A stretch of 64,000 bases of DNA from Hyphomicrobiales bacterium (GTDB lineage Bacteria; Pseudomonadota; Alphaproteobacteria; Rhizobiales; OSC116). Both the position numbers and the translations under genes were made by a program. This document shows positions 3,747-29,700 of the stretch, piece after piece. How positions within the stretch are numbered: position 1 is the first letter of the stretch; every line of letters begins with the position of its first letter. Location of the stretch: the NCBI GenBank assembly GCA_013214705.1, contig JABSRZ010000003.1, positions 651,443 to 715,442 on the forward strand, in the 5' to 3' direction. Under the pieces are notes generated by a model, which was not told where the DNA came from, did not search any database, and was given only the letters and a program-made list of their open reading frames with translations.

Positions 3747-4565
3747 TCACAGCCTCCAAAGCTCAATTTTGCAGTTAACAGACGGTCCTTCGCCGCGTAT
3801 GCCGAACCGCCAGTTTTCTACATCACCCGTTTCGACATGGTGCATAAGCGCATAATCATGGCTGGCATCGGTCACTATAAGTTCACCTTCGCCAACGCTA
3901 CGGCTTAAGGCAGCGCTCGATGTCACGCCATATTCAGAATGTTCACAACTACCCAAAATTAAATGCTGGCTATTGTTTAAATTTTTTAAGTCAGCTTTAT
4001 GTTTGCCGACGCGCATAGCAGCGCTGCTAATTTTCACCCAATAATTACCGATAGGCAGATTAAATTGGGCGTTGGCTTGGTCAAGCACCACGCCGCTGCC
4101 AAGCAGGTTTATGTTGAGTAAATTTAAATATCTTTGGTTCCAACCCGTGGCCGGGGCGTTGGTCGAGTCTAACCCCAAGGCCATTTGCTCGCATATCATT
4201 ACGTCGGGGCTAAAGTGGCTTTTACGCGCCGCATATTCCTGCCAATCTGCATTGCTAAAACTATATAATTTGCTTTCATCTTCAACCCAGCATAACCAGC
4301 CAGTTTTGGCGGTTATTATTTGCCACGCGCCATCTTGGTAATGCGCAATATTGGCATCATATCCACTCCAGTCATTAATGGCAGATGCGGCGATAATATA
4401 GGCGTCTCCCTCGGTCGGGCTGGCTGGTTTGTCGGTCAAAATTTTCGACAATACCGACAGTTGCACCATGACATCCAAGCGGCTTAAACATTCATTCATG
4501 GTGATGTGTTTTTGGTTTTGCGCTGCCGCCAAAAAGGGCATTTCTAAAAAATAACTGTTAGACAT
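3747..4565 (-). CDS. DUF2793 protein of the GTA operon
   Basis: A 272-residue protein. The N-terminal 110 residues match DUF2793: AAAQNQKHITMNE, then LSRLDVMVQLSVLS, PASPTEGDAYIIA and WLCWVEDE. The rest is beta-rich and ends with KIELWRL. The start at 4565 overlaps the end of the megatron gene by 8 nt (ATGTCTAA). DUF2793 proteins follow the gp15 equivalent in several alphaproteobacterial GTA clusters and in phages, and they are likely tail-tip, fibre or receptor-binding proteins. The C-terminal beta domain would be the variable host-contacting part. The function is inferred from position and family. Confidence 0.85.
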   Translation of the reverse strand: MSNSYFLEMPFLAAAQNQKHITMNECLSRLDVMVQLSVLSKILTDKPASPTEGDAYIIAASAINDWSGYDANIAHYQDGAWQIITAKTGWLCWVEDESKLYSFSNADWQEYAARKSHFSPDVMICEQMALGLDSTNAPATGWNQRYLNLLNINLLGSGVVLDQANAQFNLPIGNYWVKISSAAMRVGKHKADLKNLNNSQHLILGSCEHSEYGVTSSAALSRSVGEGELIVTDASHDYALMHHVETGDVENWRFGIRGEGPSVNCKIELWRL

Positions 4566-7500
4566 AAATCTCAGCCTCTGTTGCAATGCCGCGCCCCACA
4601 AGAGCTGACATCTGATAAATCTTCAGTTTAAAATTTGTGGTTAAATTGCCAAAATCCGCTGTGCGAAACGCCGCACTATAAGTTATTGTTGGCACATTGG
4701 TGGTTAAAGTTCGTTTTAAACTTTGCAAATCGTCCGACCATATTTCAACCTCATAAGCTTCTTTTTGCTCGTTTAACGGCACTTGCGATATGGCCCAATT
4801 TTCACCACCAAATCTAGATTGCCTGATCCAATTCAGCTCAATGTCATCAGCAATATTTTTACTGCTAACATGTGCTGGTGCAAAGGGTTTTTGGCCTTGT
4901 GCTGTGTGGGTTAAACTGCCGCTCAAATAGCTAGCGTCTTCCAATATCTTATTGGCAGGGCCATATTTAATTGCCATTTCACTCAATATTTCATCCGGGT
5001 TTAGGCTCAGATGCAAAATTTTATCATCCAAAATAACAAATCTCGCCCCGGTTAAAACTGGGTTGCTCATGGCATAGAATGTGCCATAGCGGCCACGGAT
5101 AAAATGCGACAATATATATTCATTTTCGGCCACAAATGTTGCGGTTTTAAATTGAATAATTTCCCAATCGCCAGCAACGTTCTGGATGCATGCCAAATTT
5201 TTACCGGCCAATAATTCACTGTCAGAAATTGATGCCAAATTACCATCATATAGGCGCACTGAAATTTGGTTACCACGGTCAATTCGGTCAACTGGGCCGC
5301 TATAGAAATCCCATAATGTCTCGCCGATTATGGCCGGTTGAGCTACAGATAAACGCTGGTCAAACGCGCCATTCACATCTTCATATATTCTCAGCGCGGC
5401 TTGCCACGGCTTGGTAAATGCAGCCACAGAAATTGCCGCAATATCTGATAATTCTGCCATCAAAGGCAAATTCATTTCCACCAATAAACCCGGGCCTTGC
5501 GACGCGTTATTATCAAATTTCCCCTGTTTTATCGCGTCGTTTAACAAGCCAGTAGCATCAAAATTTTCCACTATAGATACCGCTTCAATCAGCAAGCCGT
5601 TAACCTCCATCGGGGTCTGGATTATGGCAACAATGCGCCACTTGCCAGCCAACTCCGGCCTGCCTAAAGTGGCATCCAAATCAAAGACATCACCACATTC
5701 TAATTCTGCAAATTCAGCCGCCAGCGATAAGCTTATTTTATCGCTCGATGCAGCTATTAAAGTCAAATGATTGGCAACCAGTTTTGCCGCCAGTTGTTTT
5801 GATAATATTGCTGGCAATTCAAAATGCGCATTGCGCCGCTCGGGGTTGGTTAACAAGTCGAAATTCTGAATTTCGCTGGTGACTTTTGGGGTGTAATTGC
5901 CGTCATCACTTATATATTTTAAATGCACATCAGTGGGCATTAATTGTTGGCTTTTTGTGGCCACATGGGTGTTTTTATCGGCACTTATGTTAAGCGCGTC
6001 GAGCTGCATATAGTCAATCGAGCTTTGGTGCTTAAATATCAAAACATCATCACGAATAAAGGCATATAAACCAAAATTTTCCATCAAATTTTGCAATGTG
6101 GCTAATGGGCTGTCGGCATGATCAATTATATAACCATCAACCTGCCCAACAATGGCCGATACATCGGTTTGCAAGCCTTGGGTCAATTCATTTATCGCCA
6201 AATCCAGCGGCACAGCACCTAAGCGGCCGTTCAGCCAATGGCCAAAGCTCCAATTTGTGCCGTCCGCCCATACATTTATCAATAGCGGAAACGCCGGAAA
6301 TGGCCTTGCGTCATACGCCCAAATATACATTTGGCTGACATCTAACATATTGCCGCCATATATGGCCGATATCGGGTTATGCGCGCCAGAAGCCTGATAA
6401 TGGGTTAAAAAACTCTCCAAATACCGGCGTTGGATGATGTCATCACGGTTCAGATTGGCAAAATAGGGTATTTGACCTTCAGATGATGCCGGGTCGTAAA
6501 ATACATTGGGTTGGTTGCTGCCTTTGTCGATGGCCGGGCAACCTATTTCAGTGAGCCAAAACGGTTTTGATTCGGCAATCCATGCGGTGGGGGTCGGCTG
6601 TTCAACCCCGTCAATTCTGTCAAAATGGCTGTTTAACCACCAAGATTTTAGGTCTTTATTCCTAAATACCCAATGTTTGTTATAGGCCGTATCAATTATC
6701 GCCGTGCGGGTCTGGTTGGTTCGGTCTGCGGCCGAATTATAATAATAATCATAGCCCTCACCAGCGCCAATGTTAGCGGCTAAATAATCGCGGTCATATA
6801 TAGCTAAATTTGCGGAGCTTTTGTCCAAATGCACATCATCATCTCGCCAGTCTGATAGTGGCCAATAAGCATCTATGCCAATAAAATCAACATTGGCATT
6901 TGCCCAAAATTCATCCAGATGAAATAATAAATCTCCGCTGCCATCTTTAGCGTGATAGCCAAAATATTCGCTCCAATCCGCGCCATAAGAAATCAGACTT
7001 GTTGGCATAACTTGCTTCACCAAACCCGCCAAATCAATCAATTCATCTATAGCCGGAAAATGGTTTTTACTGTCTCTCACGGTGGTTAAACCAACCAGTT
7101 CAGAACCCAATAAAAAAGCCTCAACCCCGCCAGCAACTGCGCAGAGTTTTGCATAATGCAATATCATGCGTCGATAGCCCCAGTCGGCCGCGCCAATATA
7201 GGACACAGTGTTTTGGTTCACTTGCAAGTCACCCAACTGGCAATTGCCAAAAAATTGTTGCACCTGCGTGGCCGCCGGTGCGGTTTGGTCCGGTGTGCTG
7301 GGCTGGCCAATTGCTGGCGTGCAGGTTATGCGCCCCCGCCATGGGTAGATCGGCTGGCCGGTGCCACCTTGGGGGTTTGTCAATATATTCCCAGCCGCCA
7401 CATCCATCAATATAAATGGGTAGAACATTATTTTTAAGTCACGGAGTTTAAACTCCGCTATTGCCGCCACTATAGAAGCGTCAGAGGGCGTGCCGCCAAA

Positions 7501-8310
7501 AGCTGCCTGCCCATCTATTTGCGAAACCAGTTTTGCTTGCCCGCGCGAAATGCCATTCACCACCCATTGTTCGGGCAATGTTGTTTTGGTTAAACTGTCG
7601 ACACAGGGTTTTATTTCAATGTCACTGGCGCGTAAATCATCACCAAACCACGGCACGATTAGCGACACGCTTTCCAATAGTGGGCAGAGGTTGCACAGCT
7701 CATCTATCGAGGTTAAAAAATCTGTTTGCCCGCTAAAACCATGTTGGTTTTCTGGCAAATATTCAAACCAATTGGCCCGCATGATGGAGACTGTGTGATA
7801 ACCAAATTCAGTCGCCCCAGGAATGATGGAAACGGCTTTAATTTGGCTTTCTAATTTGCCAATTGCGTTCACAACTTCAAACGAAAATTTTGGCACCATA
7901 TTGCCAAACGGCTGCAACAATAGGTCTTCAATTACCACATAGGCGACATCTTTAAATGCCGGCGCTTTACCGACGCCATAAATATTTTCTAATAGTGGGT
8001 CGGCGGTTTGGGTCCCGCTTCCGGGGTAATATCGCCAATTAATTTCGCCAATGTCTAACAATTCATCATTCACCCATATTTTGGCAATATGGTCAATTTC
8101 GCCTTCGCAAAGCGCAATGGCAAAGCTCAAACTAAACCCCGTACCAATCTGGTCATTTTTTTTCGAAGGGTCAGATATTTTAAATTCATCGGCCCATATC
8201 ACTTGCCCAGCCACCCGCACCCGACCCAATATTTTAGGCAGAAGCGCGGTTTGGTCACTGGTCTGAATAAGCGGTGGATTTTCCAAATTTACTAATTTTA
8301 TTTTAACCAT
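4558..8310 (-). CDS. GTA megatron / tail-tip host-specificity protein (gp15 equivalent)
   Basis: A 1250-residue protein. It has the GTA N-terminal domain (RVRVAGQVIWADEF, later INWRYYPGSGTQ and EDLLLQPFGNMVP), a central TIM-barrel-like domain with GGVEAFLLGSELVGL and FIGIDAYWPLSDW, and beta-rich C-terminal baseplate domains. In RcGTA this protein forms the tail tip and contacts the cell. RcGTA gp15 is about 1300 residues and, from memory, starts with a hydrophobic Gly/Ala-rich segment of about 50 residues; here only about 27 polar residues precede RVRVAGQ. No frame breaks are seen. It lies 6 bp after the peptidase gene. Confidence 0.95.
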   Translation of the reverse strand: MVKIKLVNLENPPLIQTSDQTALLPKILGRVRVAGQVIWADEFKISDPSKKNDQIGTGFSLSFAIALCEGEIDHIAKIWVNDELLDIGEINWRYYPGSGTQTADPLLENIYGVGKAPAFKDVAYVVIEDLLLQPFGNMVPKFSFEVVNAIGKLESQIKAVSIIPGATEFGYHTVSIMRANWFEYLPENQHGFSGQTDFLTSIDELCNLCPLLESVSLIVPWFGDDLRASDIEIKPCVDSLTKTTLPEQWVVNGISRGQAKLVSQIDGQAAFGGTPSDASIVAAIAEFKLRDLKIMFYPFILMDVAAGNILTNPQGGTGQPIYPWRGRITCTPAIGQPSTPDQTAPAATQVQQFFGNCQLGDLQVNQNTVSYIGAADWGYRRMILHYAKLCAVAGGVEAFLLGSELVGLTTVRDSKNHFPAIDELIDLAGLVKQVMPTSLISYGADWSEYFGYHAKDGSGDLLFHLDEFWANANVDFIGIDAYWPLSDWRDDDVHLDKSSANLAIYDRDYLAANIGAGEGYDYYYNSAADRTNQTRTAIIDTAYNKHWVFRNKDLKSWWLNSHFDRIDGVEQPTPTAWIAESKPFWLTEIGCPAIDKGSNQPNVFYDPASSEGQIPYFANLNRDDIIQRRYLESFLTHYQASGAHNPISAIYGGNMLDVSQMYIWAYDARPFPAFPLLINVWADGTNWSFGHWLNGRLGAVPLDLAINELTQGLQTDVSAIVGQVDGYIIDHADSPLATLQNLMENFGLYAFIRDDVLIFKHQSSIDYMQLDALNISADKNTHVATKSQQLMPTDVHLKYISDDGNYTPKVTSEIQNFDLLTNPERRNAHFELPAILSKQLAAKLVANHLTLIAASSDKISLSLAAEFAELECGDVFDLDATLGRPELAGKWRIVAIIQTPMEVNGLLIEAVSIVENFDATGLLNDAIKQGKFDNNASQGPGLLVEMNLPLMAELSDIAAISVAAFTKPWQAALRIYEDVNGAFDQRLSVAQPAIIGETLWDFYSGPVDRIDRGNQISVRLYDGNLASISDSELLAGKNLACIQNVAGDWEIIQFKTATFVAENEYILSHFIRGRYGTFYAMSNPVLTGARFVILDDKILHLSLNPDEILSEMAIKYGPANKILEDASYLSGSLTHTAQGQKPFAPAHVSSKNIADDIELNWIRQSRFGGENWAISQVPLNEQKEAYEVEIWSDDLQSLKRTLTTNVPTITYSAAFRTADFGNLTTNFKLKIYQMSALVGRGIATEAEIYV

Positions 8311-8316
8311 ATTTAC

Positions 8317-8766
8317 CTATTTCAAATTCTTGTTTTGCCACCTATATCGGTGCGATAAATGTCGCATCCACCAAGGTGAAAAACTATTCTCAACCACCCC
8401 TCGCCCAACATAGGCATGGATAAATTTTGCGTCTGATGTCACAATTGCCAAATGTCTTGTCGGCAGATCTAGCCGGTATTTGAACAATAAAATATCGCCC
8501 AAATTCAGCTCTATATCTGCAGCTATGGCGGTGAAATTTCGTTCGGCCATTGCCACTAACAAGTCGGTTTCAGAGCTCTCATTCCAGCGCGGGCCATATG
8601 CAGGCATAGCCTCGGGTTCGACGCCTAATAATTGCCGCCACACCCCGCGCAACAGCCCCAAACAATCACAACCAACCTGTTTTATGCTGGCTTGGTGCTG
8701 ATAGGGTGTGCCGAGCCATGTGCGCGCTTCATCGACAATGGCACACCGCCATTCTAACTCATTCAT
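8317..8766 (-). CDS. GTA NlpC/P60-family tail peptidase (gp14 equivalent)
   Basis: A 149-residue cell-wall peptidase of the TIGR02219 type. The catalytic Cys is in GCDCLGLL and the His in TRHLAIV, with FIHAYVGRGVVE near the end. In GTA particles it sits at the tail tip and cuts peptide cross-links during DNA delivery. The ATG at 8766 lies just after the hub gene's stop (8772); an alternative TTG at 8775 would overlap that stop. Length is normal for the family, and the catalytic residues are retained although the operon lacks tail-tube genes. Confidence 0.93.
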   Translation of the reverse strand: MNELEWRCAIVDEARTWLGTPYQHQASIKQVGCDCLGLLRGVWRQLLGVEPEAMPAYGPRWNESSETDLLVAMAERNFTAIAADIELNLGDILLFKYRLDLPTRHLAIVTSDAKFIHAYVGRGVVENSFSPWWMRHLSHRYRWQNKNLK

Positions 8767-8771
8767 ATTGG

Positions 8772-9419
8772 TCAATTTACCGATGTCAAACGCTGCGGAT
8801 AGGCAAATTTAAAGTCGCGGCCGGGCATCTGAGCAAAGCCCCTAAATTGCGCTGCATTGTCAAATTTATTTTGGCAAGTTTCAAAATATTTGTCACAACC
8901 TGTCGCCACGATGGCCGGGTCGAGACTAGGTAGATCTAAACCACACCGCCCGTCACCCAGTTGCGCGTCACATTTCTCTTGTAAAACCCGCCCCACTTGG
9001 CTTTCCAATTTTTTGGCCAAACCGTGCAAGTTAAGTTTTAAATGGCTATTGTCCAAACTAAAATTACCAATAATGCCCATTTTCACCCGGTTATATTCGG
9101 CGACATTATGCCAATTCACTTGATATAGCGTAAAGTCCGCACCCGCTAAAAAATCTGTATTTATATGCTGGTTAGTGATTGTTAGATCACCTAAATAAGT
9201 TGATATTTCAAACCCATCATCTTGCAAATTCATCCTGTGTTTGACAGACTTAATAGTGAGACCGAAATCGGCAATGTAGATTTCATTTAAAAAAGTCATA
9301 TCCCTGTCATGATCAGTTAAATAAATATTGTCATCTGCTTTGGATAGTTTCAGGCAATAACATATTTGCGTCACAGATAGGTTTATATGTTGTTTCCATT
9401 CATTATTTACAATTTGCAT
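8772..9419 (-). CDS. GTA hub protein, DUF2163/Phage_BR0599 (gp13 equivalent), internally shortened
   Basis: A 215-residue protein. The N-terminal DUF2163 part has LTDHDRDMTF, LYQVNWHNV and VGRVLQEKCDAQLGDGRCG. The C-terminal hallmark is GCDKYFETCQNKFDN and FRGFAQMPG. In the family (TIGR02218, about 280-295 residues) about 60-70 residues of the Phage_BR0599 domain separate these two cysteine motifs. Here only about 12 residues do (CGLDLPSLDPAIVATGCDK), so the first part of that domain is absent without a frame break. The paired cysteines remain. In RcGTA this protein belongs to the iron-sulfur hub between the distal tail protein and the megatron. Confidence 0.9.
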   Translation of the reverse strand: MQIVNNEWKQHINLSVTQICYCLKLSKADDNIYLTDHDRDMTFLNEIYIADFGLTIKSVKHRMNLQDDGFEISTYLGDLTITNQHINTDFLAGADFTLYQVNWHNVAEYNRVKMGIIGNFSLDNSHLKLNLHGLAKKLESQVGRVLQEKCDAQLGDGRCGLDLPSLDPAIVATGCDKYFETCQNKFDNAAQFRGFAQMPGRDFKFAYPQRLTSVN

Positions 9420-9425
9420 AGCATC

Positions 9426-10082
9426 TCAATTCAATATTTCAATCAAAGAAATTTTGGCAATTTCACTTTGGTTATGGGCGCTATGGTCAATGTCCAAACT
9501 TTGTTGTTCAAACCGCACGGCGACATCAAACTCAAAACCAGCGCTAATGACATCCCCTTGTGCCAAACCGGCCGCCGGCAAAATAGTCACCTTGCCGGTC
9601 AACAAATCCACAATATAATCGGCCGGGGTTAGCACGACTGCGTTCATAGCAATTAATGTGGTCGCCAATTTCGGCTTGGAAATGTTACGAATATAATTCT
9701 GGTCATCATCAACATTGTCACCATATTTTTTGGTCAGTTGAAAAACCGCATTCTGGCCATCATAGGTGCCAATATTTTGGTCAATTGCGTTGGGGTCTGC
9801 GTTTAGAATGCAAGATTTATGGTCCAATTTGTCGTGCCAGCGAAACCCAATTAACGGGCCTTTTCTGGCCTCATAGAAATCAGCTAACAATGCCAGTTCG
9901 GCGTCAGATTTTGCAGCAACGGCAATTTCAAACCGGCGTTTTGAGTGATATTTGCGGGCGTTTCTTTGTTCTTTGCCGGATATAAAATCTTGTATTTCAA
10001 CATTGCGGATAATAGATTTTTTTGCGCTATAGCCAATTTTGGCTGGAAATAATACATCCTGAAACGATTCAATCACGCTCAT
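9426..10082 (-). CDS. GTA distal tail protein, DUF2460 (gp12 equivalent)
   Basis: A 218-residue protein matching TIGR02217/DUF2460: F-x5-FPAKIGY near the start, then GKEQRNARKYHSKRRFEIA, FYEARKGPLIGFRWHDK and the C-terminal SAGFEFDVAVRF. The start is the ATG at 10082, which overlaps the preceding gene's TGA as ATGA, with GGAGAGG 7 nt upstream; an in-frame ATG at 10100 is less likely. Normal family length. In RcGTA it caps the tail tube. It is translationally coupled here to the tail terminator gene, although four genes usually lie between them. Confidence 0.94.
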   Translation of the reverse strand: MSVIESFQDVLFPAKIGYSAKKSIIRNVEIQDFISGKEQRNARKYHSKRRFEIAVAAKSDAELALLADFYEARKGPLIGFRWHDKLDHKSCILNADPNAIDQNIGTYDGQNAVFQLTKKYGDNVDDDQNYIRNISKPKLATTLIAMNAVVLTPADYIVDLLTGKVTILPAAGLAQGDVISAGFEFDVAVRFEQQSLDIDHSAHNQSEIAKISLIEILN

Positions 10083-10489
10083 AGCAACCTCTCCACGCAA
10101 ATATTATAGTCCATAGAGCCTTTAACGATGTCAAAATCAATCTGCTCTACACTGGTACCAATCATCTCCACGCTCAATAAATTATAGCCAGCCCCAATGT
10201 CGCCGGGTGCGAAATCGGCTTCAAATATGTCTTCTATCCGCGCCATAATATTGTGAGTTGTCAGACTGCTATCGGCCTTGGCTACCACCACCAGTTTCAG
10301 CGCGTGTTGGCGCACCTCTGTGTCCAACTCATGCACCAATTTGCTGGTGGTTTTTTGATATGATATATAGGGCAAGGTGACGTTTTCCTGCACGATGTCA
10401 TAAACGTGCAAACCGCCAGTTAAAATGGTCAAATTCGCATCTGTCGATAATTTCGAATATATCCAGCTCTTGACTTGTAAAACACTCAT
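10079..10489 (-). CDS. GTA tail terminator protein, DUF3168 (gp8 equivalent)
   Basis: A 136-residue protein of the DUF3168 family: LTGGLHVYDIVQENVTLPYISY near the start, then a beta-rich body with MDYNICVERLL at the end. In siphophages and RcGTA it closes the tail tube and joins it to the head connector. It is 10 bp after the head closure gene. Its stop codon is shared with the start of the distal tail protein gene, a junction normally occupied by the major tail protein, tail chaperone and tape-measure genes. Confidence 0.9.
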   Translation of the reverse strand: MSVLQVKSWIYSKLSTDANLTILTGGLHVYDIVQENVTLPYISYQKTTSKLVHELDTEVRQHALKLVVVAKADSSLTTHNIMARIEDIFEADFAPGDIGAGYNLLSVEMIGTSVEQIDFDIVKGSMDYNICVERLL

Positions 10490-10499
10490 AATTGCCTAC

Positions 10500-10844
10500 C
10501 TAACCCAGTTTAACGGCGCTAATTTTTAGCCACTCATTTTTTGCATCAATATCTAACACCGAAAGAATTTCATAGCTGTCGCCAGCATGTTCAATTTGCA
10601 TTTGCGGTTTAATTTCAACTTGGTAACGCAGATAAAATCGATATTTTTGCAGGTGTTTTGTGGCTTGATTGCTAAATCTGTCTTCACTTTGTTGGGGTTC
10701 CAAGCGCGCCCAACAGGTTTTCCATAGCGTTTTTGCACTCACCTCACCGCCAATCGCATCGCGGCTAACCACAATGTTATAGATATCTATTCGTTGGGTT
10801 AACTCGCCAAAATCAACCCCAAATTTGGTTTTTCTAAAGCTCAT
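10500..10844 (-). CDS. GTA head closure / head-tail adaptor (gp7 equivalent)
   Basis: A 114-residue SPP1-family head-tail adaptor. Visible marks are LTQRIDIYN, RDAIGGEV, W-x3-WARLEP and the C-terminal DSYEILSVLDIDAKNEWLKISA. Length is normal (about 110). It forms the ring that closes the portal vertex after DNA packaging. It lies 15 bp downstream of the connector gene and 10 bp upstream of the tail terminator gene, in the standard GTA order. Confidence 0.9.
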   Translation of the reverse strand: MSFRKTKFGVDFGELTQRIDIYNIVVSRDAIGGEVSAKTLWKTCWARLEPQQSEDRFSNQATKHLQKYRFYLRYQVEIKPQMQIEHAGDSYEILSVLDIDAKNEWLKISAVKLG

Positions 10845-10859: not shown

Positions 10860-11429
10860 TTAGAGTCTAATTTTCTTAAACGGCGCAATCATTTCCAATA
10901 TCGACAGCGGAATTTGATGAATCTCACCCGAGGCTATCGGGCCTCTATTTTCATGCCAAAACGCCACCAAATGCAAAATGGCTTGGCCAATTGGCGCGGG
11001 TATATCTGTCGCCGCTACGCCATATCCAGCCCAAAACTGTACCCGCAAACCGGCATATTCACTGGCAATATCTGGCAAAGTTTTAATGGTTTTTAGCAAG
11101 CCATTATCTGGCTTTAAATTGGTTATATAAAAACTGTCATCAATAATGTTATAGACTTGTAGATCATCAATGATCGCCACATTTTCTATCGATATCACCG
11201 GGCTAAGCGGCAAATATATCACCCCATCTGGCGGCAAATAGTCCAGATATAACGACCATAATTGCCGCAAAAACGCGCGGTTTAATCTGGTTTCCAGTTG
11301 CACCCGTGCGGCGGTTATCATCGATGCCAGCAATGTGTCTTCGGCATTGTTATCAATTTTCAAATAGGTTTTTACATCTGCCAAAGTTACAGGTTCGGTC
11401 AGAGCTGCGGTTTCCAATATCAAAGCCAT
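10860..11429 (-). CDS. GTA head-tail connector (gp6 equivalent)
   Basis: A 189-residue protein of the phage gp6-like connector family: VTLADVKTYLKID at the N-terminus, an alpha-helical segment with AARVQLETRLNRAF, WSLYLDYLPPDG and a C-terminal IPAPIGQAILHLVAFWHENRG. In RcGTA it binds the portal and starts the connector. It begins 23 nt after a strong intrinsic terminator that separates it from the capsid gene, so its expression probably depends on read-through. Confidence 0.92.
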   Translation of the reverse strand: MALILETAALTEPVTLADVKTYLKIDNNAEDTLLASMITAARVQLETRLNRAFLRQLWSLYLDYLPPDGVIYLPLSPVISIENVAIIDDLQVYNIIDDSFYITNLKPDNGLLKTIKTLPDIASEYAGLRVQFWAGYGVAATDIPAPIGQAILHLVAFWHENRGPIASGEIHQIPLSILEMIAPFKKIRL

Positions 11430-11502: not shown

Positions 11503-12801
11503 CTAAGCCGCAAATTTCAGTAGCTTGATGGCATTAAAGTCATGCACGCCGCCACCCACGCGCTTGGTTGTGTAAAATAACAAATATGGTTTTGCCGAAT
11601 ATGGGTCCCGCAAAATGCTAATGCCACGGCGGTCAACAATCAGATAGCCACGGCCAAAATCACCAAAGGCAATCGGGGTATTGCCAATGGCAATGTCTGG
11701 CATTTGCTCAGCTTCGGCAATGTTATAATTTAATATAGATGCCTTGCCGCCCACATTTTCAGCCGGCCGCCACATATAATTGCCGTCTGCATCTTTTAGT
11801 TTTCTAATTTGAGCTTGGGTTTTTCGGTTCATCACCCAGTGGCTATTGGTACGGTAGCGGGCTTTTAAGCTGTAAATTAAATCCAGTAGACAATCTGATG
11901 CATCACTAGCGGCAAAGTCTCCATCTGCACCGGTGCTTACATAACCCAAACTGCCCCAGGCCCAAATTGCTTCGTCAATAGTTGGCACGTTCAAAAAGCC
12001 GGTGGGTTTGTTCACCCCATCACCATTTACAAAGGCTTCAGTTTCTTGGTCAACAAATGCCGCTTCAATTTCAGCTGCCATCCACTGTTCCAAATTCACC
12101 GCGCTGTCTTCTAATAATGAGGCAGAGGCCGCAGGCATGGCGTATAATTCCATGGTTGGGTATACCAACTCTTCTAAATCTGCGCCGTTGGTTTGGGGGC
12201 GTGCATCGGCATCGCCCACCCAACCAGAAGCAAAATCAGATATAGCAAATGGTTTCTTATAAACGCTAGATGTCACTTGTTGAATGCCAGCTATTTCACG
12301 AATCGGCGAGGCTAATTTCAAATTGGCCAGAATTTGGCTTTCGACTTGGTCAGGCACAAAATATCCGCCATCATTGCCCGTTGCCAACGAATATGCTTTG
12401 CCTTCGATAGATTCGATTTGGCTCATGCCAGTACGCATATAAGCATTAAAGGCGGCTTTTGCTTCATTATCTACGCCACCAAATTCAAGTTTATCGTTGC
12501 CCACACCCAAGGCCGGCCGTTTGGCTTTGTGGTTCAACCGGTCAATTTTAGTTTGTTGGCTGTCCAAATGAGCGTTAATTTTATTTAACTTTTGTTCCAC
12601 CAATGGGTCTGCCGCGCTGTGTTTCTCCAGCGCCGCCAAACGGTCATCATTACTATGTTTAAACTCTTCGAATGCGTGCATAAAATCATCGAATATGATG
12701 TTAATGTCACTGTCATTTTTGTTCGCCATAATTTTTGTTTCCAATTTTTGCTTTCCTATTTTGGTTTTAATATTTGCTTGTCCTGGGTGTTTATTTGCCA
12801 T
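11503..12801 (-). CDS. GTA major capsid protein, HK97 fold (gp5 equivalent)
   Basis: A 432-residue HK97-type capsid protein. An N-terminal scaffold-like helical region (about 30-95) precedes the capsid domain, which has YSLATGNDGGYFVPDQV, then LLEDSAVNLEQWMA, the AFVNGDGVNKPTGFL signature and SHWVMNRKTQAQIRKLKD. The ATG at 12801 is supported by AAGGAG 9 nt upstream; an ATG 24 codons later has no good site. The prohead protease gene upstream is expected to remove the N-terminal region. A terminator follows the gene. Confidence 0.96.
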   Translation of the reverse strand: MANKHPGQANIKTKIGKQKLETKIMANKNDSDINIIFDDFMHAFEEFKHSNDDRLAALEKHSAADPLVEQKLNKINAHLDSQQTKIDRLNHKAKRPALGVGNDKLEFGGVDNEAKAAFNAYMRTGMSQIESIEGKAYSLATGNDGGYFVPDQVESQILANLKLASPIREIAGIQQVTSSVYKKPFAISDFASGWVGDADARPQTNGADLEELVYPTMELYAMPAASASLLEDSAVNLEQWMAAEIEAAFVDQETEAFVNGDGVNKPTGFLNVPTIDEAIWAWGSLGYVSTGADGDFAASDASDCLLDLIYSLKARYRTNSHWVMNRKTQAQIRKLKDADGNYMWRPAENVGGKASILNYNIAEAEQMPDIAIGNTPIAFGDFGRGYLIVDRRGISILRDPYSAKPYLLFYTTKRVGGGVHDFNAIKLLKFAA

Positions 12802-12844: not shown

Positions 12845-13327
12845 TTATGCGCGCATAATATTTGCCACCATACCTAGCTTATCTGCCAGTGCCGGGTTGG
12901 GTTTTGCCGGGTTTTGGGGTTTGGCAATGCGGGCTTTCACCTGCATCGGAAAAGTCACTATAGATATTTCCCACAAATCTAAATCGTGGATTAATCTGGT
13001 TTGGTCGCGTGATTTTTGGGTGGCATTTCGGGTGTTGAAACCAATCGACAAGCCGTCAATAACCTCATCTTCAATCATAATGGCTACATCATGCGCTTGC
13101 GCGGTTTTTACCGACAATCGCCCGACCACATATAAGCCCTTAGCATCCGCTTTCAATTCAAGCCATTTGCCAATCGGCTGGTTGGGGTCATGTTGCCACA
13201 GCAAACTAATGTCATTTGGTTGTTTTTGTGCCAAACATTTTTCAAATGCACTCGGTAATATGATGTCATTGCCCAAATCAACTTGGTTAAAAATGCAGGC
13301 ATATCCGGCAAATATGTCATTCATCAT
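12845..13327 (-). CDS. GTA prohead protease, HK97 family U35 (gp4 equivalent)
   Basis: A 160-residue serine protease of the U35 prohead type: YACIFNQVD and ILPSAFEKCL near the start, the catalytic His in LLWQHDPNQPIG, the Ser in DGLSIGF and the closing DLWEISIVTFPM motif. It matures the capsid by cleaving the scaffold region of the major capsid protein. The start overlaps the end of the portal gene by 11 nt; a second ATG directly follows the first. Confidence 0.94.
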   Translation of the reverse strand: MMNDIFAGYACIFNQVDLGNDIILPSAFEKCLAQKQPNDISLLWQHDPNQPIGKWLELKADAKGLYVVGRLSVKTAQAHDVAIMIEDEVIDGLSIGFNTRNATQKSRDQTRLIHDLDLWEISIVTFPMQVKARIAKPQNPAKPNPALADKLGMVANIMRA

Positions 13328-14555
13328 TTAACTCCAATTTGGGTTTTATGGTTTGCCCTGCTGGCAAGGGGCTATAGCCGACGGCTAGGCGTTTTTCTTC
13401 TAGGGTTAAAAATTCAGCCGCACTGATGCGGCGCCATAAGGCTTCGCGTTCGCCACTTAAAGCTTGTATTTTGTCCAAGTCTAATTTTAACTCTAAGCTT
13501 TGATGCCATGCCGGGCTTAACCAGCTGGCCAACCCACTGGTGAAACGGCTTACCAGTGGCAATATGGTTTGCCGCCAAAAGTTGCGGTTGGCTTCTTGAT
13601 AATTCGAAAATCTATTGTCGCCGGGAATGCCCAACAACATAGGTGGCACCCCCATTGCCAAGGCGATTTCGCGCGCCGCCACATGTTTGGCTTCAATAAA
13701 ATCCATGTCTTTGGGGCTAAAGCCCATCGCCGACCAATCTAAGCCGCCTTCTAAAATCATCGGCCGCCCGGCGTTAGCTTGGCCTTGATAAGTTTGTTCC
13801 AACTCTTGTTTCAAACGGTTAAATTGCTCATCCGTTAGGTTATTCTGGCCTTCTTGCCCGCGATATACCACCGCGCCAGACGGCCGCGCACTATTGTTTA
13901 ATAAAGATTTATTCCACTTACTGGCGGCATTGTGTATCTCTATGGCAATGCGGGCGGATTTAAACGGGCTTTGGCCATAATGGTCATCATTGGGGTTGTA
14001 AAAAGTCTGGTGCAAAATGGGCGTAATGCCATCTAATTGCTGGTTAAACAAATGTTTTTTATTGCCAATTTTATACTCATAATAGGCAGGCCAACCTTGG
14101 TCATCTAATATCACCCGCATGCGTTCGGGGCGCAGGCTATAGAGGGTTTCGGGCAGATTTTCTGCGTTGGTTAACTGTTGAATGTAACAATTACCATCAA
14201 GTAATAATTGGCTATAACAATGCTCTAGAAATTCCTGCCCAGCCATGTTGATGTTTGGCTGTCTGATTAAATCTAAAAACCGGTGGCTGGTTAATTCTTC
14301 ATCGGCCTGAAACAATTGCAAATGCACGCTGGCTGCCGCTTCCACTATCATCCGTACAGATCGATGCGCCACCGGGTTTTGGGCATAGGCGAGGCGTGCC
14401 ATCGCGGCTGTGGCTGCATCATCGGCCATATCTGTTTGGCCTAAATACCCATATTCTGCGCCATAGGAGTTCAATGGCATAAAATGTTTTCGTTCGGCGT
14501 TTGTCGGTTTTTCACCCGTTTTTTGGCCAAAACCCAGTCTTCGAAGAAATGACAT
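13317..14555 (-). CDS. GTA portal protein, HK97 family (gp3 equivalent)
   Basis: A 412-residue portal protein: AYAQNPVAHRSVRMIVEAAA, GNCYIQQL, the Y-N-P region before GQSPFKSARIAIEIHN, the central NRFSNYQEANRNFWRQTILP motif and EREALWRRISAAEFLTLEEKR near the end. It forms the dodecameric vertex through which DNA is packaged and released. It lies 37 bp after the terminase gene and overlaps the protease gene. Length is close to RcGTA's portal (about 396). Confidence 0.95.
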   Translation of the reverse strand: MSFLRRLGFGQKTGEKPTNAERKHFMPLNSYGAEYGYLGQTDMADDAATAAMARLAYAQNPVAHRSVRMIVEAAASVHLQLFQADEELTSHRFLDLIRQPNINMAGQEFLEHCYSQLLLDGNCYIQQLTNAENLPETLYSLRPERMRVILDDQGWPAYYEYKIGNKKHLFNQQLDGITPILHQTFYNPNDDHYGQSPFKSARIAIEIHNAASKWNKSLLNNSARPSGAVVYRGQEGQNNLTDEQFNRLKQELEQTYQGQANAGRPMILEGGLDWSAMGFSPKDMDFIEAKHVAAREIALAMGVPPMLLGIPGDNRFSNYQEANRNFWRQTILPLVSRFTSGLASWLSPAWHQSLELKLDLDKIQALSGEREALWRRISAAEFLTLEEKRLAVGYSPLPAGQTIKPKLELNDE

Positions 14556-14592: not shown

Positions 14593-15969
14593 TTACAGGT
14601 CTCTGATACGCGGCACATTGTCCGCGCCGTTTAATAGCAAGTGGCTAACCGCCCACACCAACGCATCGACCCGATCTGGGCTTTTTTGGCTGGCGGCAAT
14701 TTGTTGGTCAAAGTTGCACATCTCATCTTCTAGCAATTCAAACATGCCAATATGGTGTATGCGGCCTTGTTCATATAGGGCGGCAACCGGCTCGGCACGG
14801 CTTTTTTTATCTTTACGGGCAAATACGGCCGCATATGAAATATTGGCGTCAACGGTTCGCAATATGGTTTCCACCATTTCGCCGCCTTGGTTCACTTCAG
14901 CTACAATCCGGTCGACATTAAATTGATGATAAGTCTGAACCGCCTTTGTAGCCCATTTTATCGGGCTTGCTGCCTCCATGGTGATGTCCGCCAAAATATA
15001 GGCTTTTTTGTCATTGCCACGCGCCGCCACAATCATGCCGCAAGCGTTAGATTTTTTGTGGCTGGTTGCCGGCGGGTCTATGGCCAAAATAATGCGGTTA
15101 AAATCTGCATAATCATAATCTTTTTTGCGTCGACGTAGTTTTTCTATTAAGTCAGAATTCCATAACGCGCCTTGTCTATCTTCAATAATTTCGCCATAAA
15201 GCTCTTGCCTGCCTAAATTTGTACCGGCATAATTCTCATTTATATTATGCAAAAATATTGCCGCTAGGTTTTGCCTATTGTCAAAGGTCGAGGCTTTGCT
15301 GACAAAGCTTTTTTCCGAACTTAATAGATTTTTTAACTGCTTTTTATTGCGCGGTGTGGTGGTGATGACAATTTGCGGGTTATCACCCAACCGCATGCCA
15401 AATTGCAGCATGTCCCAAACCTGCTCATCATATTGCCATTTGGCAAATTCATCACACCATGCCACATGAAATTGTGGGCCACGTAAACTTTCTGGTTCCT
15501 CAGCGCTAAACAGGTTGGCAACCGCACCATTGGGCCATTCAAGCCGCTTGCGAGAGGCAATATAAGTTGGTTTTTGCTGCGGCGGGTGAATGTTTAATAA
15601 CCCACTTTCGCCTTCTAACATCACCTCTCTCACGTCATTAAAGGTTTCGCCAATCAGCGCAATGCGCCAAGCTGGCTTGGTGGCAAATGGCTTAATGCCC
15701 AACGCCATAGCCCTTATCCATTCTGCGCCAGCGCGGGTTTTGCCAGCGCCGCGGCCACCAAGTAATATCCAATTTTGCCAATTAGCTCTGGCATTTTTGG
15801 GCTGTAAATTTGGTGGCAATTGGTCATCCCTGGCCCATAAATACCAATCAAAATATAGTTGTTCTGCTTCTTTCTTAGCTAATTTAGATGCAAATTGTTC
15901 AATTTGCGGTTTGGTTAATTGCCGCAAGTTTTCGCGCAATATTGTCTCGGAGTTTTTGATCCGTTTCAT
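14593..15969 (-). CDS. GTA large terminase (gp2 equivalent)
   Basis: A 458-residue packaging motor. The ATPase domain has Walker A in LLGGRGAGKTRAGAEW, Walker B in VAWCDEF and the coupling motif VITTTPR. The C-terminal RNase H-like nuclease domain starts at IILAIDPPAT and includes VAEVNQGGEMVE. Length is normal. The ATG at 15969 makes the gene overlap the upstream small gene by 71 nt, and no ATG or GTG near the upstream stop would remove the overlap. In GTAs this enzyme packages host DNA by a headful mechanism with little specificity. Confidence 0.96.
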   Translation of the reverse strand: MKRIKNSETILRENLRQLTKPQIEQFASKLAKKEAEQLYFDWYLWARDDQLPPNLQPKNARANWQNWILLGGRGAGKTRAGAEWIRAMALGIKPFATKPAWRIALIGETFNDVREVMLEGESGLLNIHPPQQKPTYIASRKRLEWPNGAVANLFSAEEPESLRGPQFHVAWCDEFAKWQYDEQVWDMLQFGMRLGDNPQIVITTTPRNKKQLKNLLSSEKSFVSKASTFDNRQNLAAIFLHNINENYAGTNLGRQELYGEIIEDRQGALWNSDLIEKLRRRKKDYDYADFNRIILAIDPPATSHKKSNACGMIVAARGNDKKAYILADITMEAASPIKWATKAVQTYHQFNVDRIVAEVNQGGEMVETILRTVDANISYAAVFARKDKKSRAEPVAALYEQGRIHHIGMFELLEDEMCNFDQQIAASQKSPDRVDALVWAVSHLLLNGADNVPRIRDL

Positions 15970-16183
15970 AATTTACTTTTGACTCATCTGGTTTAGATAT
16001 CTCATCAGCCGCGGCCAGTTGCATAACGCGTATATTCTCAAGCGCTTTTATGATCACTGTTAAAGTCTTGGCTTGTTTTTCACAATGCGCCAAATCTGCT
16101 TGCAGTTCGGTTTTGGCCAAAAGCGACATAATTTTCATCAGTTGCTTCTCTAACTTTTTTAAAATTGATTCTTGCTTACTCAT
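15899..16183 (-). CDS. small helical protein in the position of the GTA small terminase (gp1 equivalent)
   Basis: A 94-residue, highly charged and probably all-helical protein with a coiled-coil-like first half (KKLEKQLMKIMSLLAKTELQ) and RDNIARKLAAIN near its end. The position, first in the operon and overlapping the large terminase gene, matches RcGTA gene 1, which encodes the small terminase. I see no distinct sequence motif, so assignment rests on size, composition and order. AAGGGGAA precedes the ATG at 16183. An intrinsic terminator ends 23 nt before its start. Confidence 0.75.
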   Translation of the reverse strand: MSKQESILKKLEKQLMKIMSLLAKTELQADLAHCEKQAKTLTVIIKALENIRVMQLAAADEISKPDESKVNYETDQKLRDNIARKLAAINQTAN

Positions 16184-27751: not shown

Positions 27752-28606
27752 CTAAATTTCGGCCTTAAAATCACTCATCGCCCAGCTTAAATACTTGTTT
27801 CGGTTCGCTGGTTTTTTATCCATGCCATAATAACTCACCAATTTGTCCAATGCCATTGTCAGCATTAATTTTCCAGACCTTGCTGGCCAGTTGAACGATT
27901 TTTCTGTCGCCTCTAAGCCGTTGCCGAATAAACATATTTCGACCAATATCGCAGCATATTCTTCGCCAACATGCGCCAAGCCTTCATATAATTGCTTGCG
28001 CGCCATATATGTGGCTTCAGCAAACCCAGTTTGGGTTTGTTGCCCGGTGTAATGCGGTTGCGGCGCCGACGCGATGCGTTCCCAATTCATGGTTACATTT
28101 GGCTGTAATTTGGATTTGGCAAAAAAACCAAATAATTTTTGCCCGGCCTGTAAATGTTCTTGGCTTAAATATTTATGCTCGATATTGCGCTGGCGGTTAA
28201 ACAGTTTTAACAGCGGGCCAAACTCAGAATCACTTATATGTTTAACCTGCTGAGCGCGGCTTGCTATGCTATGTGTGGGTTTAAACTTCGTTAAATCTGC
28301 GCGCGAACTAGGGCTTGGTTCTTCAATGGGCTGATCTTCAAGGTTTAGAAAATAGATAAATTGCGCCACCCATTCCCGGCCTTTTTGGGTAAAATAATAT
28401 TGGTCTTCTAGCAGCGCCAACCAGCCATTGTCGCTCATATAATGCACTATCTTCAAAGCTAGTTTTTTTACAAATACATTTACGTTAAGGTCTTCTTTAT
28501 AAAGCGCCACTTCGTTCAATGGCAATTTTTGTATGTGGTGAGGGTGTTTCAACATTATTTGTAACAATATGCGGCTCTCACGCTCCAATTCATGTCTACA
28601 TTGCAT
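27752..28606 (-). CDS. DUF6456 protein (putative DNA-binding regulator)
   Basis: A 284-residue protein. The N-terminal 90 residues look like a winged-helix domain (LLQIMLKHPHH, YFTQKGREWVAQF), and the C-terminal DUF6456 domain has ARKQLYEGLAHVGEEYAAILVEIC and FNWPARSGKLMLTMAL. The family is alphaproteobacterial. Its start codon lies inside the last codons of the DnaA-HTH gene (11-nt overlap), so the two are translationally coupled. The conserved group with mucR suggests a regulatory role; no target is known. Confidence 0.85.
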   Translation of the reverse strand: MQCRHELERESRILLQIMLKHPHHIQKLPLNEVALYKEDLNVNVFVKKLALKIVHYMSDNGWLALLEDQYYFTQKGREWVAQFIYFLNLEDQPIEEPSPSSRADLTKFKPTHSIASRAQQVKHISDSEFGPLLKLFNRQRNIEHKYLSQEHLQAGQKLFGFFAKSKLQPNVTMNWERIASAPQPHYTGQQTQTGFAEATYMARKQLYEGLAHVGEEYAAILVEICLFGNGLEATEKSFNWPARSGKLMLTMALDKLVSYYGMDKKPANRNKYLSWAMSDFKAEI

Positions 28607-29003
28607 ATAGGTTTTCTCCTTTTTTTACAAAGGCAAATTCACAAATTGTTTTCTCCAAAATTTCCAAAGTTAAATCAAAATCTATCTCGTCTCGTTTGTC
28701 TTCTACCAAATTACAAGCATATGCCACTGTGGTTCTATCGCGGTTAAACATCTTGCCCGTTTGTGTCAGGTTTAAGCCACAGCAAATATGAGTTAAATAC
28801 ATTGCCACTTGCCGGGCAAACGCCACATGCGCCTGAGAGCGAGATTTAGCCAATATTTCCTTGGTCGAAACCCTAAAAACTTTCGAAACCATTTCCAATA
28901 TCACGGGTTGTATGCGGATAATTTCAAAATAATTATCCACGTCTAACGGGTGTGGTCGATAATCAATATTATGAAGACATTCTTCCCCTATCAAATTAGT
29001 CAT
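28596..29003 (-). CDS. DnaA domain IV-like helix-turn-helix protein
   Basis: A 135-residue protein. Residues about 40-120 resemble the C-terminal DNA-binding domain of DnaA: FRVSTKEILAKSRSQAHVAFARQVAMYL, then TGKMFNRDRTTVAYAC, which corresponds to the GRDHTTVxHA signature. It has no ATPase domain. Such stand-alone proteins are common in Hyphomicrobiales next to mucR and DUF6456. It could bind DnaA-box-like sites and act as a regulator or compete with DnaA; this is inference. Confidence 0.88.
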   Translation of the reverse strand: MTNLIGEECLHNIDYRPHPLDVDNYFEIIRIQPVILEMVSKVFRVSTKEILAKSRSQAHVAFARQVAMYLTHICCGLNLTQTGKMFNRDRTTVAYACNLVEDKRDEIDFDLTLEILEKTICEFAFVKKGENLYAM

Positions 29004-29262: not shown

Positions 29263-29700
29263 TTAGCTTTGTACAGCTTTGCGGCGGCCTTTATGCCCCA
29301 AACCCATATTTTTAGCCAGTCTAGATCTTGCCGCGGCGTAATTTGGCGCCACCATTGGGTAGTCCATCGGCAAGCCCCATTTTTCCCTATATTCTTCGGG
29401 CGATAGATTATAGTGAGTGCGCAAATGACGCTTTAAAGATTTAAACTTTTTACCGTCTTCAAGACAAATAATATAGTCCTGAGAAATAGATTTCGCCACC
29501 GCGACTGCCGGAGCCTGCTTGTTTGCACCAGCGCCAGATATAGCTGAAAGACTATTTAGCCCCACATAAATACTTGTGATGAGGTTTTCCATATCACCAA
29601 CAGCAACATTGTTATTACCAACATATGCAGAGGCAATATTCGCTGTTAAATTTACTAGTTTATCAAACTCGTCATTTTTAACTTTTTCGTTTTCTTCCAT
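29263..29700 (-). CDS. mucR: Ros/MucR-family transcriptional regulator
   Basis: A 145-residue protein with the Ros-type zinc finger: IICLEDGKKFKSLKRHLRTH, where Cys and Asp (C-x2-D) and two His would bind zinc, then SPEEYREKWGLP and the C-terminal basic tail GLGHKGRRKAVQS. The N-terminal half is the oligomerisation region. MucR binds AT-rich DNA as a large oligomer and silences many genes (exopolysaccharide, motility, cell-cycle and virulence genes). AAAGGAGAG precedes the ATG. The upstream AT-rich 370 bp probably contain autoregulatory sites. Confidence 0.95.
   Translation of the reverse strand: MEENEKVKNDEFDKLVNLTANIASAYVGNNNVAVGDMENLITSIYVGLNSLSAISGAGANKQAPAVAVAKSISQDYIICLEDGKKFKSLKRHLRTHYNLSPEEYREKWGLPMDYPMVAPNYAAARSRLAKNMGLGHKGRRKAVQS

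Follow-up and report, generated by a model that had tools for sequence, protein, structure and literature searches.

A gene transfer agent cluster in a genus of marine Hyphomicrobiales lacks tape-measure and, in most members, tail-tube genes

Results

Gene content and layout of the cluster

The genome under study (G000; 3.5 Mb, 98.9% complete) carries an RcGTA-type gene transfer agent (GTA) cluster on contig C23, within the 64-kb stretch of DNA that was analyzed and is referred to here as the window. The cluster lies on the minus strand and runs from terL (starting at 15969) to gp15 (ending at 4558), followed by the gene for a DUF2793 protein. Its features, in window coordinates, are as follows.

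15899..16183, minus: candidate terS (gp1), a small ORF overlapping the terL start, proposed from position only
14593..15969, minus: large terminase gp2 (terL), Terminase_6N/6C
13317..14555, minus: portal gp3, Phage_portal 9e-84
12845..13327, minus: prohead protease gp4, Peptidase_S78 4e-31
11503..12801, minus: major capsid protein gp5, Phage_capsid 6.5e-82
10860..11429, minus: head-tail adaptor gp6, Phage_connect_1 and phrog_442
10500..10844, minus: stopper or head closure protein gp7, Phage_HCP and phrog_25
10079..10489, minus: tail terminator gp8, PF11367 (Tail_completion_gp17), phrog_176 and an AF2 model
10079..10082, minus: ATGA shared by the stop codon of gp8 and the start codon of gp12; gp9, gp10, gp10.1, and gp11 are missing here
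9426..10082, minus: distal tail protein gp12, DUF2460 1.7e-57, TIGR02217 and a full-length match to 6tba_6B
8772..9419, minus: baseplate hub gp13, two-piece match to 6tba_7A
8317..8775, minus: tail NlpC/P60 peptidase gp14, TIGR02219 2.5e-45
4558..8310, minus: megatron gp15, match to 6tba_8A
3747..4565, minus: DUF2793 fibre-like protein overlapping the gp15 end, PF10983 2e-29, with an inferred start codon

The order of the head and tail genes (terminase, portal, protease, capsid, neck, gp12-gp15) is that of RcGTA, and the stretch from terL to gp15 is so densely packed that it offers no space for an additional tail gene. All structural genes match siphophage or GTA families in Pfam and PHROG, the megatron carries the GTA-specific TIM barrel PF13547 (GTA_TIM, 4e-135), and no podoviral portal, adaptor, or nozzle gene was found among the structural genes of the window. 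Likewise, no integrase or replication genes adjoining the cluster were seen in the window. The large terminase carries a Walker A motif (GGRGAGKT) and nuclease acidic motifs, and is 78% identical in two other members of the genus, G001 and G005, in which the DUF2793 protein is 70% identical. The terS candidate gave no Pfam, PHROG, or NCBIfam match; it is kept in the same two genomes at ~70% identity.

The gp8/gp12 junction

Neither a tube gene (gp9), nor the chaperones (gp10 and gp10.1), nor a tape measure (gp11) lies between gp8 and gp12 in the G000 cluster. An earlier reading of this DNA, made without database searches (the sequence-only reading), had described an ATGA junction at this site with a good ribosome binding site, and the coordinates agree: the two genes overlap by 4 bases and GGAGAGG lies 5 nt upstream of the gp12 ATG. 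For gp12, its statement that the flanking proteins are full length was also borne out. Residues 6-216 of gp12 align to residues 2-208 of RcGTA Rcc01695, and the AlphaFold model of gp8 (pLDDT 90, pTM 0.84) finds its best PDB match in the RcGTA terminator 6tba_4A (TM 0.73), indicating, as modelled, that gp8 is a real tail terminator with its fold kept.

Domain losses in the megatron and hub

The megatron, previously described as intact, proved to be shortened in every genus cluster. All five clusters lack the iris/penetration domain of gp15 (RcGTA residues 1-46); in G000, the alignment with 6tba_8A starts only at residue 22, the counterpart of RcGTA residue 70. By comparison, gp15 begins with a Gly/Ala-rich iris domain in all 19 relatives scored and in further comparison clusters. 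A mis-called start was considered and rejected, as only 2 codons of open frame precede the ATG in all five genus members. The G000 hub has in addition lost the oligosaccharide-binding (sugar-binding) domain (RcGTA residues 168-249) that its siblings keep; it matches 6tba_7A in two pieces (7-167 and 240-285) and retains four FeS-type cysteines. Judged by this inventory, components involved in conducting DNA and in crossing the membrane were lost together.

Distribution within the genus

The genus is represented by six genomes (G000-G005), marine MAGs of the OCS116 cluster or Hyphomicrobiales, several of them fragmented. Comparison of the junction among sister genomes, as the sequence-only reading had proposed, showed gp8 directly before gp12, with all four intervening genes absent, in G001, G002, and G005 (contig C85) as in G000. 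The recurrence of this adjacency in separate assemblies, at 55-60% gp12 identity, disposes of an assembly collapse at 10080, which had been kept as an option. The exact ATGA is particular to G000, with a 3-bp gap in its place in G001, and what is conserved is, from these alignments, the architecture rather than the ATGA.

The junction is also not a single unique event. In G003, a tube gene shares an ATGA with gp8 and ends 7 bases before gp12, and gp10, gp10.1, and gp11 are missing; the full length of this tube can be aligned to GTA tubes (26-36% identity). No gp12 match was obtained in G004 (75% complete). A second G005 contig, C9, holds an in-frame chimera of protease and gp8 without capsid, gp6, or gp7, which may reflect real decay by deletion or a misassembly, the MAG being 5% contaminated. 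In sum, the tape measure, both chaperones, and the iris are gone in all members with a cluster, and the tube is gone in all but G003.

A concatenated tree placed G000 outside (G003,(G002,(G001,G005))) with a support of 92. The genus sits on a long stem branch, with 0.98 substitutions/site, which is compatible with selection that was relaxed or altered. Since G003 retains the tube without a tape measure, loss of the tape measure appears to have preceded that of the tube. Mapped on the tree, the losses suggest that the tape measure, chaperones, and iris disappeared once, and that the tube followed, probably twice; a regain of the tube in G003 is the less likely alternative.

Order and class relatives

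Outside the genus, all 20 order relatives whose loci were read directly have a tube gene and further tail genes at this site, and automatic recovery of a gp11 ORF (~170-210 aa) succeeded in 17 relatives. The distance from tube to gp12 is ~0.9-2.5 kb in >30 such relatives with both genes on one contig. The occurrence of gp11 was then compared with that of GTA_TIM in a class sample (212 genomes) and an order sample (298 genomes). The gp11 profile found matches in 182 of the 203 GTA_TIM-positive order genomes, and can thus be regarded as sensitive. The 21 genomes without a match, all of which were inspected except G299, G382, G385, and G472, include four of the genus under study, four with weak or partial matches, three with contig edges or broken assemblies (G006, G013, and G408), two with GTA remnants (G432 and G451), and four of another genus with a different element.

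Several of these loci are worth describing in their own right. The remnants in G432 (L111) and G451 (L113) keep gp12-gp15 and have lost most or all head genes, and their gp15 is full length with the iris domain. In one genus of family f31 (G035, G287, G341, and G386; loci L107-L110), a conserved ~10-kb element combines a GTA-related terL with a P22-type portal (phrog_156), a capsid (phrog_283), an Ad3 adaptor, and an Hc3 closure protein. The element also encodes 714 aa of protein similar to the TIM-barrel portion of the GTA megatron, and has the look of a podovirus/GTA hybrid. Among the class genomes, the gene at the gp11 position is short or divergent in G106 and G195, and the locus of G141 is interrupted. 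The G195 gene (L102, 9745-10110) is a 121-aa ORF at the expected gp11 place, possibly a very short tape measure and hence a sign of a shorter GTA tail. In G220, a 1.3-Mb class genome, gp7 is followed directly by gp12 (L103, G220:C7:15000-31500) and a gp11-like gene lies on another contig, so that its GTA is, from the gene positions, dispersed. A scan of IMG/VR for gp12 relatives gave nothing.

Search for the missing genes elsewhere

Profiles of gp10 and gp11 were built from relatives and run on the six genus genomes. The gp11 profile gave no credible match in any of them (best E 0.09, over 55 residues), and the gp10 profile gave one, on a 6.7-kb contig of G005, beside a tube homologue. No GTA-type gp10 or gp11 was found elsewhere in G000 by this search. 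The only tube homologue of G000 lies on contig C44, inside a separate and complete siphoprophage (L052, G000:C44:102000-121000) with terL, portal, ClpP-like protease, capsid, terminator, tube, and tail tip genes, and a 974-aa tape measure of the TMP_3 type. This prophage is only remotely related to the GTA cluster (portal 23%, capsid 31%), and its tube was rejected as a displaced GTA tail gene. The split locus that the sequence-only reading had allowed for therefore finds no counterpart in G000. Tube homologues outside the cluster are also carried by G001 and G005, and G003 has no tube match besides that of its own cluster.

Regulators and competence

Two further genes of the window resemble a GTA activator.

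28596..29003, minus: GafY-like regulator with a DnaA-type HTH, Bac_DnaA_C 2.3e-18, assigned by domain and position
27752..28606, minus: GafZ-like GTA activator, DUF6456 5.2e-29

In known systems, gafA is annotated as a DUF6456 protein (PMC9765227), and an activator split into GafY and GafZ is known in Caulobacter (PMC9632790, PMC11150451). The pair at 27752-29003 fits GafY and GafZ, the halves of GafA, with orthology suggested by domains and order, and would supply the cluster with a dedicated activator. DUF6456 is single-copy in 6/6 genus genomes and in the control Caulobacter, and in G000, G001, and G005 it is encoded no more than ~20 kb from the cluster. A ROS/MucR-type regulator is encoded directly upstream of the pair (29263-29700), and it is possible that it regulates the pair. 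ComEC is present in 5/6 genus genomes.

Selection on the remaining genes

The dN/dS ratio across the remaining genes, which the sequence-only reading had also suggested estimating, is ~0.03-0.23 for all cluster genes in the pairs G001/G005 and G001/G002, indicating strong purifying selection; Nei-Gojobori dS was saturated for more distant pairs. The lowest values belong to capsid, portal, and terminase, and the highest to gp8, gp14, and gp7. Because both comparisons postdate the loss, it is the reduced cluster itself that is constrained. The cluster is thus maintained vertically by purifying selection, and no phage genes for replication or integration were seen beside it.

Discussion

In the current study, we characterized a GTA cluster from which the middle of the tail is missing. 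On balance, we favor the view that it encodes a maintained RcGTA-type GTA whose tail was cut back in the ancestor of the genus, giving a particle with a tubeless, very short tail and altered DNA delivery; judged from the genes, we regard this as moderately probable. In RcGTA, the terminator is separated from the distal tail by five tube rings, and this space is occupied by the tape measure. The fold is common to the stopper, terminator, tube, and distal-tail proteins (PMC7296036), which makes direct stacking of the remaining rings plausible. In such a particle, the retained terminase would fill the head with host DNA, the terminator ring would dock directly on the distal-tail ring, and the hub, peptidase, and megatron would close the structure. 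The resulting stub would be ~19 nm shorter than the RcGTA tail, given five tube rings of ~3.8 nm each.

DNA retention and delivery must then differ from those of RcGTA, since the cluster encodes no tape-measure trimer, no iris, and no presumed membrane-piercing helix. In RcGTA, the channel is blocked by the iris (residues 1-46 of the megatron), which is believed to form an outer-membrane pore and, together with the tape measure, to hold the DNA (PMC7296036). Most likely, the baseplate of the short particle would dock and open, the peptidase would still act, and DNA would enter via the recipient's competence system; retention of the peptidase and ComEC favors continued delivery into or at the periplasm. 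More tentatively, we propose a conduit-free GTA, a head on a baseplate with no tape measure or piercing helix that would hand over DNA at the surface to the competence machinery, and that would have arisen once in this genus, the tape measure, chaperones, and iris being lost in a coordinated way and the tube repeatedly thereafter. This fuller scheme is possible, but we hold it with some doubt.

Several points speak against a functional short-tailed particle. We know of no siphophage-type tail that assembles without a tube and a tape measure, and the G005:C9 chimera, the long stem branch, and the extra domain loss in the G000 hub also count against it. Tail assembly is, moreover, easily broken, as knockout of the gp14 peptidase alone in RcGTA gives tail-less empty heads (PMC7296036).

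One rival explanation is slow decay, in which tail function was lost, the cluster is eroding, and conservation reflects recent erosion or side roles. Four genes and domains of two others are gone, the chimera and the stem branch can be read in the same way, and true GTA remnants do exist in the order (G432 and G451, with only gp12-gp15 or similar kept). However, the loss is older than the divergence of species that now share 44-80% protein identity, and their genes are still open at dN/dS 0.03-0.23, all six genomes retain the GafZ-type activator, and the real remnants of the order have lost head genes and not the mid-tail only. We consider decay unlikely, in keeping with the sequence-only reading, which had taken the gap to be clean rather than simple decay; the gap is shared across the genus, and purifying selection and the retained activators support that judgment. 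Another explanation is a repurposed particle that delivers no DNA and serves, for example, as an anti-competitor agent, a decoy, or a DNA-holding device. It would account for the pattern of loss, in which every part concerned with conducting DNA or crossing the membrane (tube, tape measure, and iris) is gone and the capsid, packaging, baseplate, TIM-barrel megatron, and DUF2793 protein remain, but the packaging genes and peptidoglycan peptidase are under selection and ComEC is present, as expected for DNA delivery, and we find this rather improbable. Finally, tail parts supplied in trans, from unrecognised genes or from the C44 siphoprophage with its complete tail module, are hinted at by the tube homologues outside the cluster in G001 and G005 and by the separate gp11-like gene of G220, but the lack of gp11 in six genomes, the confinement of gp10 to one G005 contig beside a tube gene, the absence of a second tube match in G003, the remoteness of the C44 proteins, and an iris loss left unexplained make a split system very improbable.

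Descriptions of GTAs present them as tailed particles from which DNA is ejected via a tube and a membrane-active tip. If packaging, neck, baseplate, and regulators were kept under selection and exactly the conduit and penetration parts dropped, as a maintained short-tailed GTA would imply, the lineage would be a natural test of the parts that DNA transfer needs, and would show how a tail of the siphophage type can evolve into a stub. The complete relatives, G003 (tube, no tape measure), and the remaining members (neither) form a stepwise series for studying the interdependence of tail parts. No report of tailless or short-tailed GTAs, of OCS116 GTAs, or of incomplete GTA tails was found in the open-access literature searched.

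Among known systems, the closest is the GTA of Rhodobacter capsulatus (RcGTA, 6TBA; PMC7296036), which agrees in gene order and has homologues of the terminase, capsid, neck, distal tail, hub, peptidase, and megatron. The five tube rings, tape-measure trimer, and iris/penetration domain of RcGTA have no counterpart in the G000 cluster, and the G000 hub is without the sugar-binding domain found in that of RcGTA. Caulobacter crescentus (CcGTA; PMC9632790, PMC11150451) likewise has a split pair of DnaA-type HTH and DUF6456 proteins, encoded here ~12 kb from the cluster; unlike CcGTA, a demonstrated DNA-transferring particle, the GTA of G000 is a predicted one. Podovirus-type phages would share the short stub without a tape-measured tube, but the likeness lies in the inferred shape only, as podoviruses have a nozzle and the G000 parts (HK97 capsid, terminator, distal tail, and hub) are those of siphophages and GTAs. 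Alphaproteobacterial GTA remnants and scattered genes (G432, G451, and G220) are likewise without gp11 adjoining gp12. In those genomes, however, head genes are lost or dispersed and the iris is kept, whereas the genus studied here keeps head, neck, and baseplate together.
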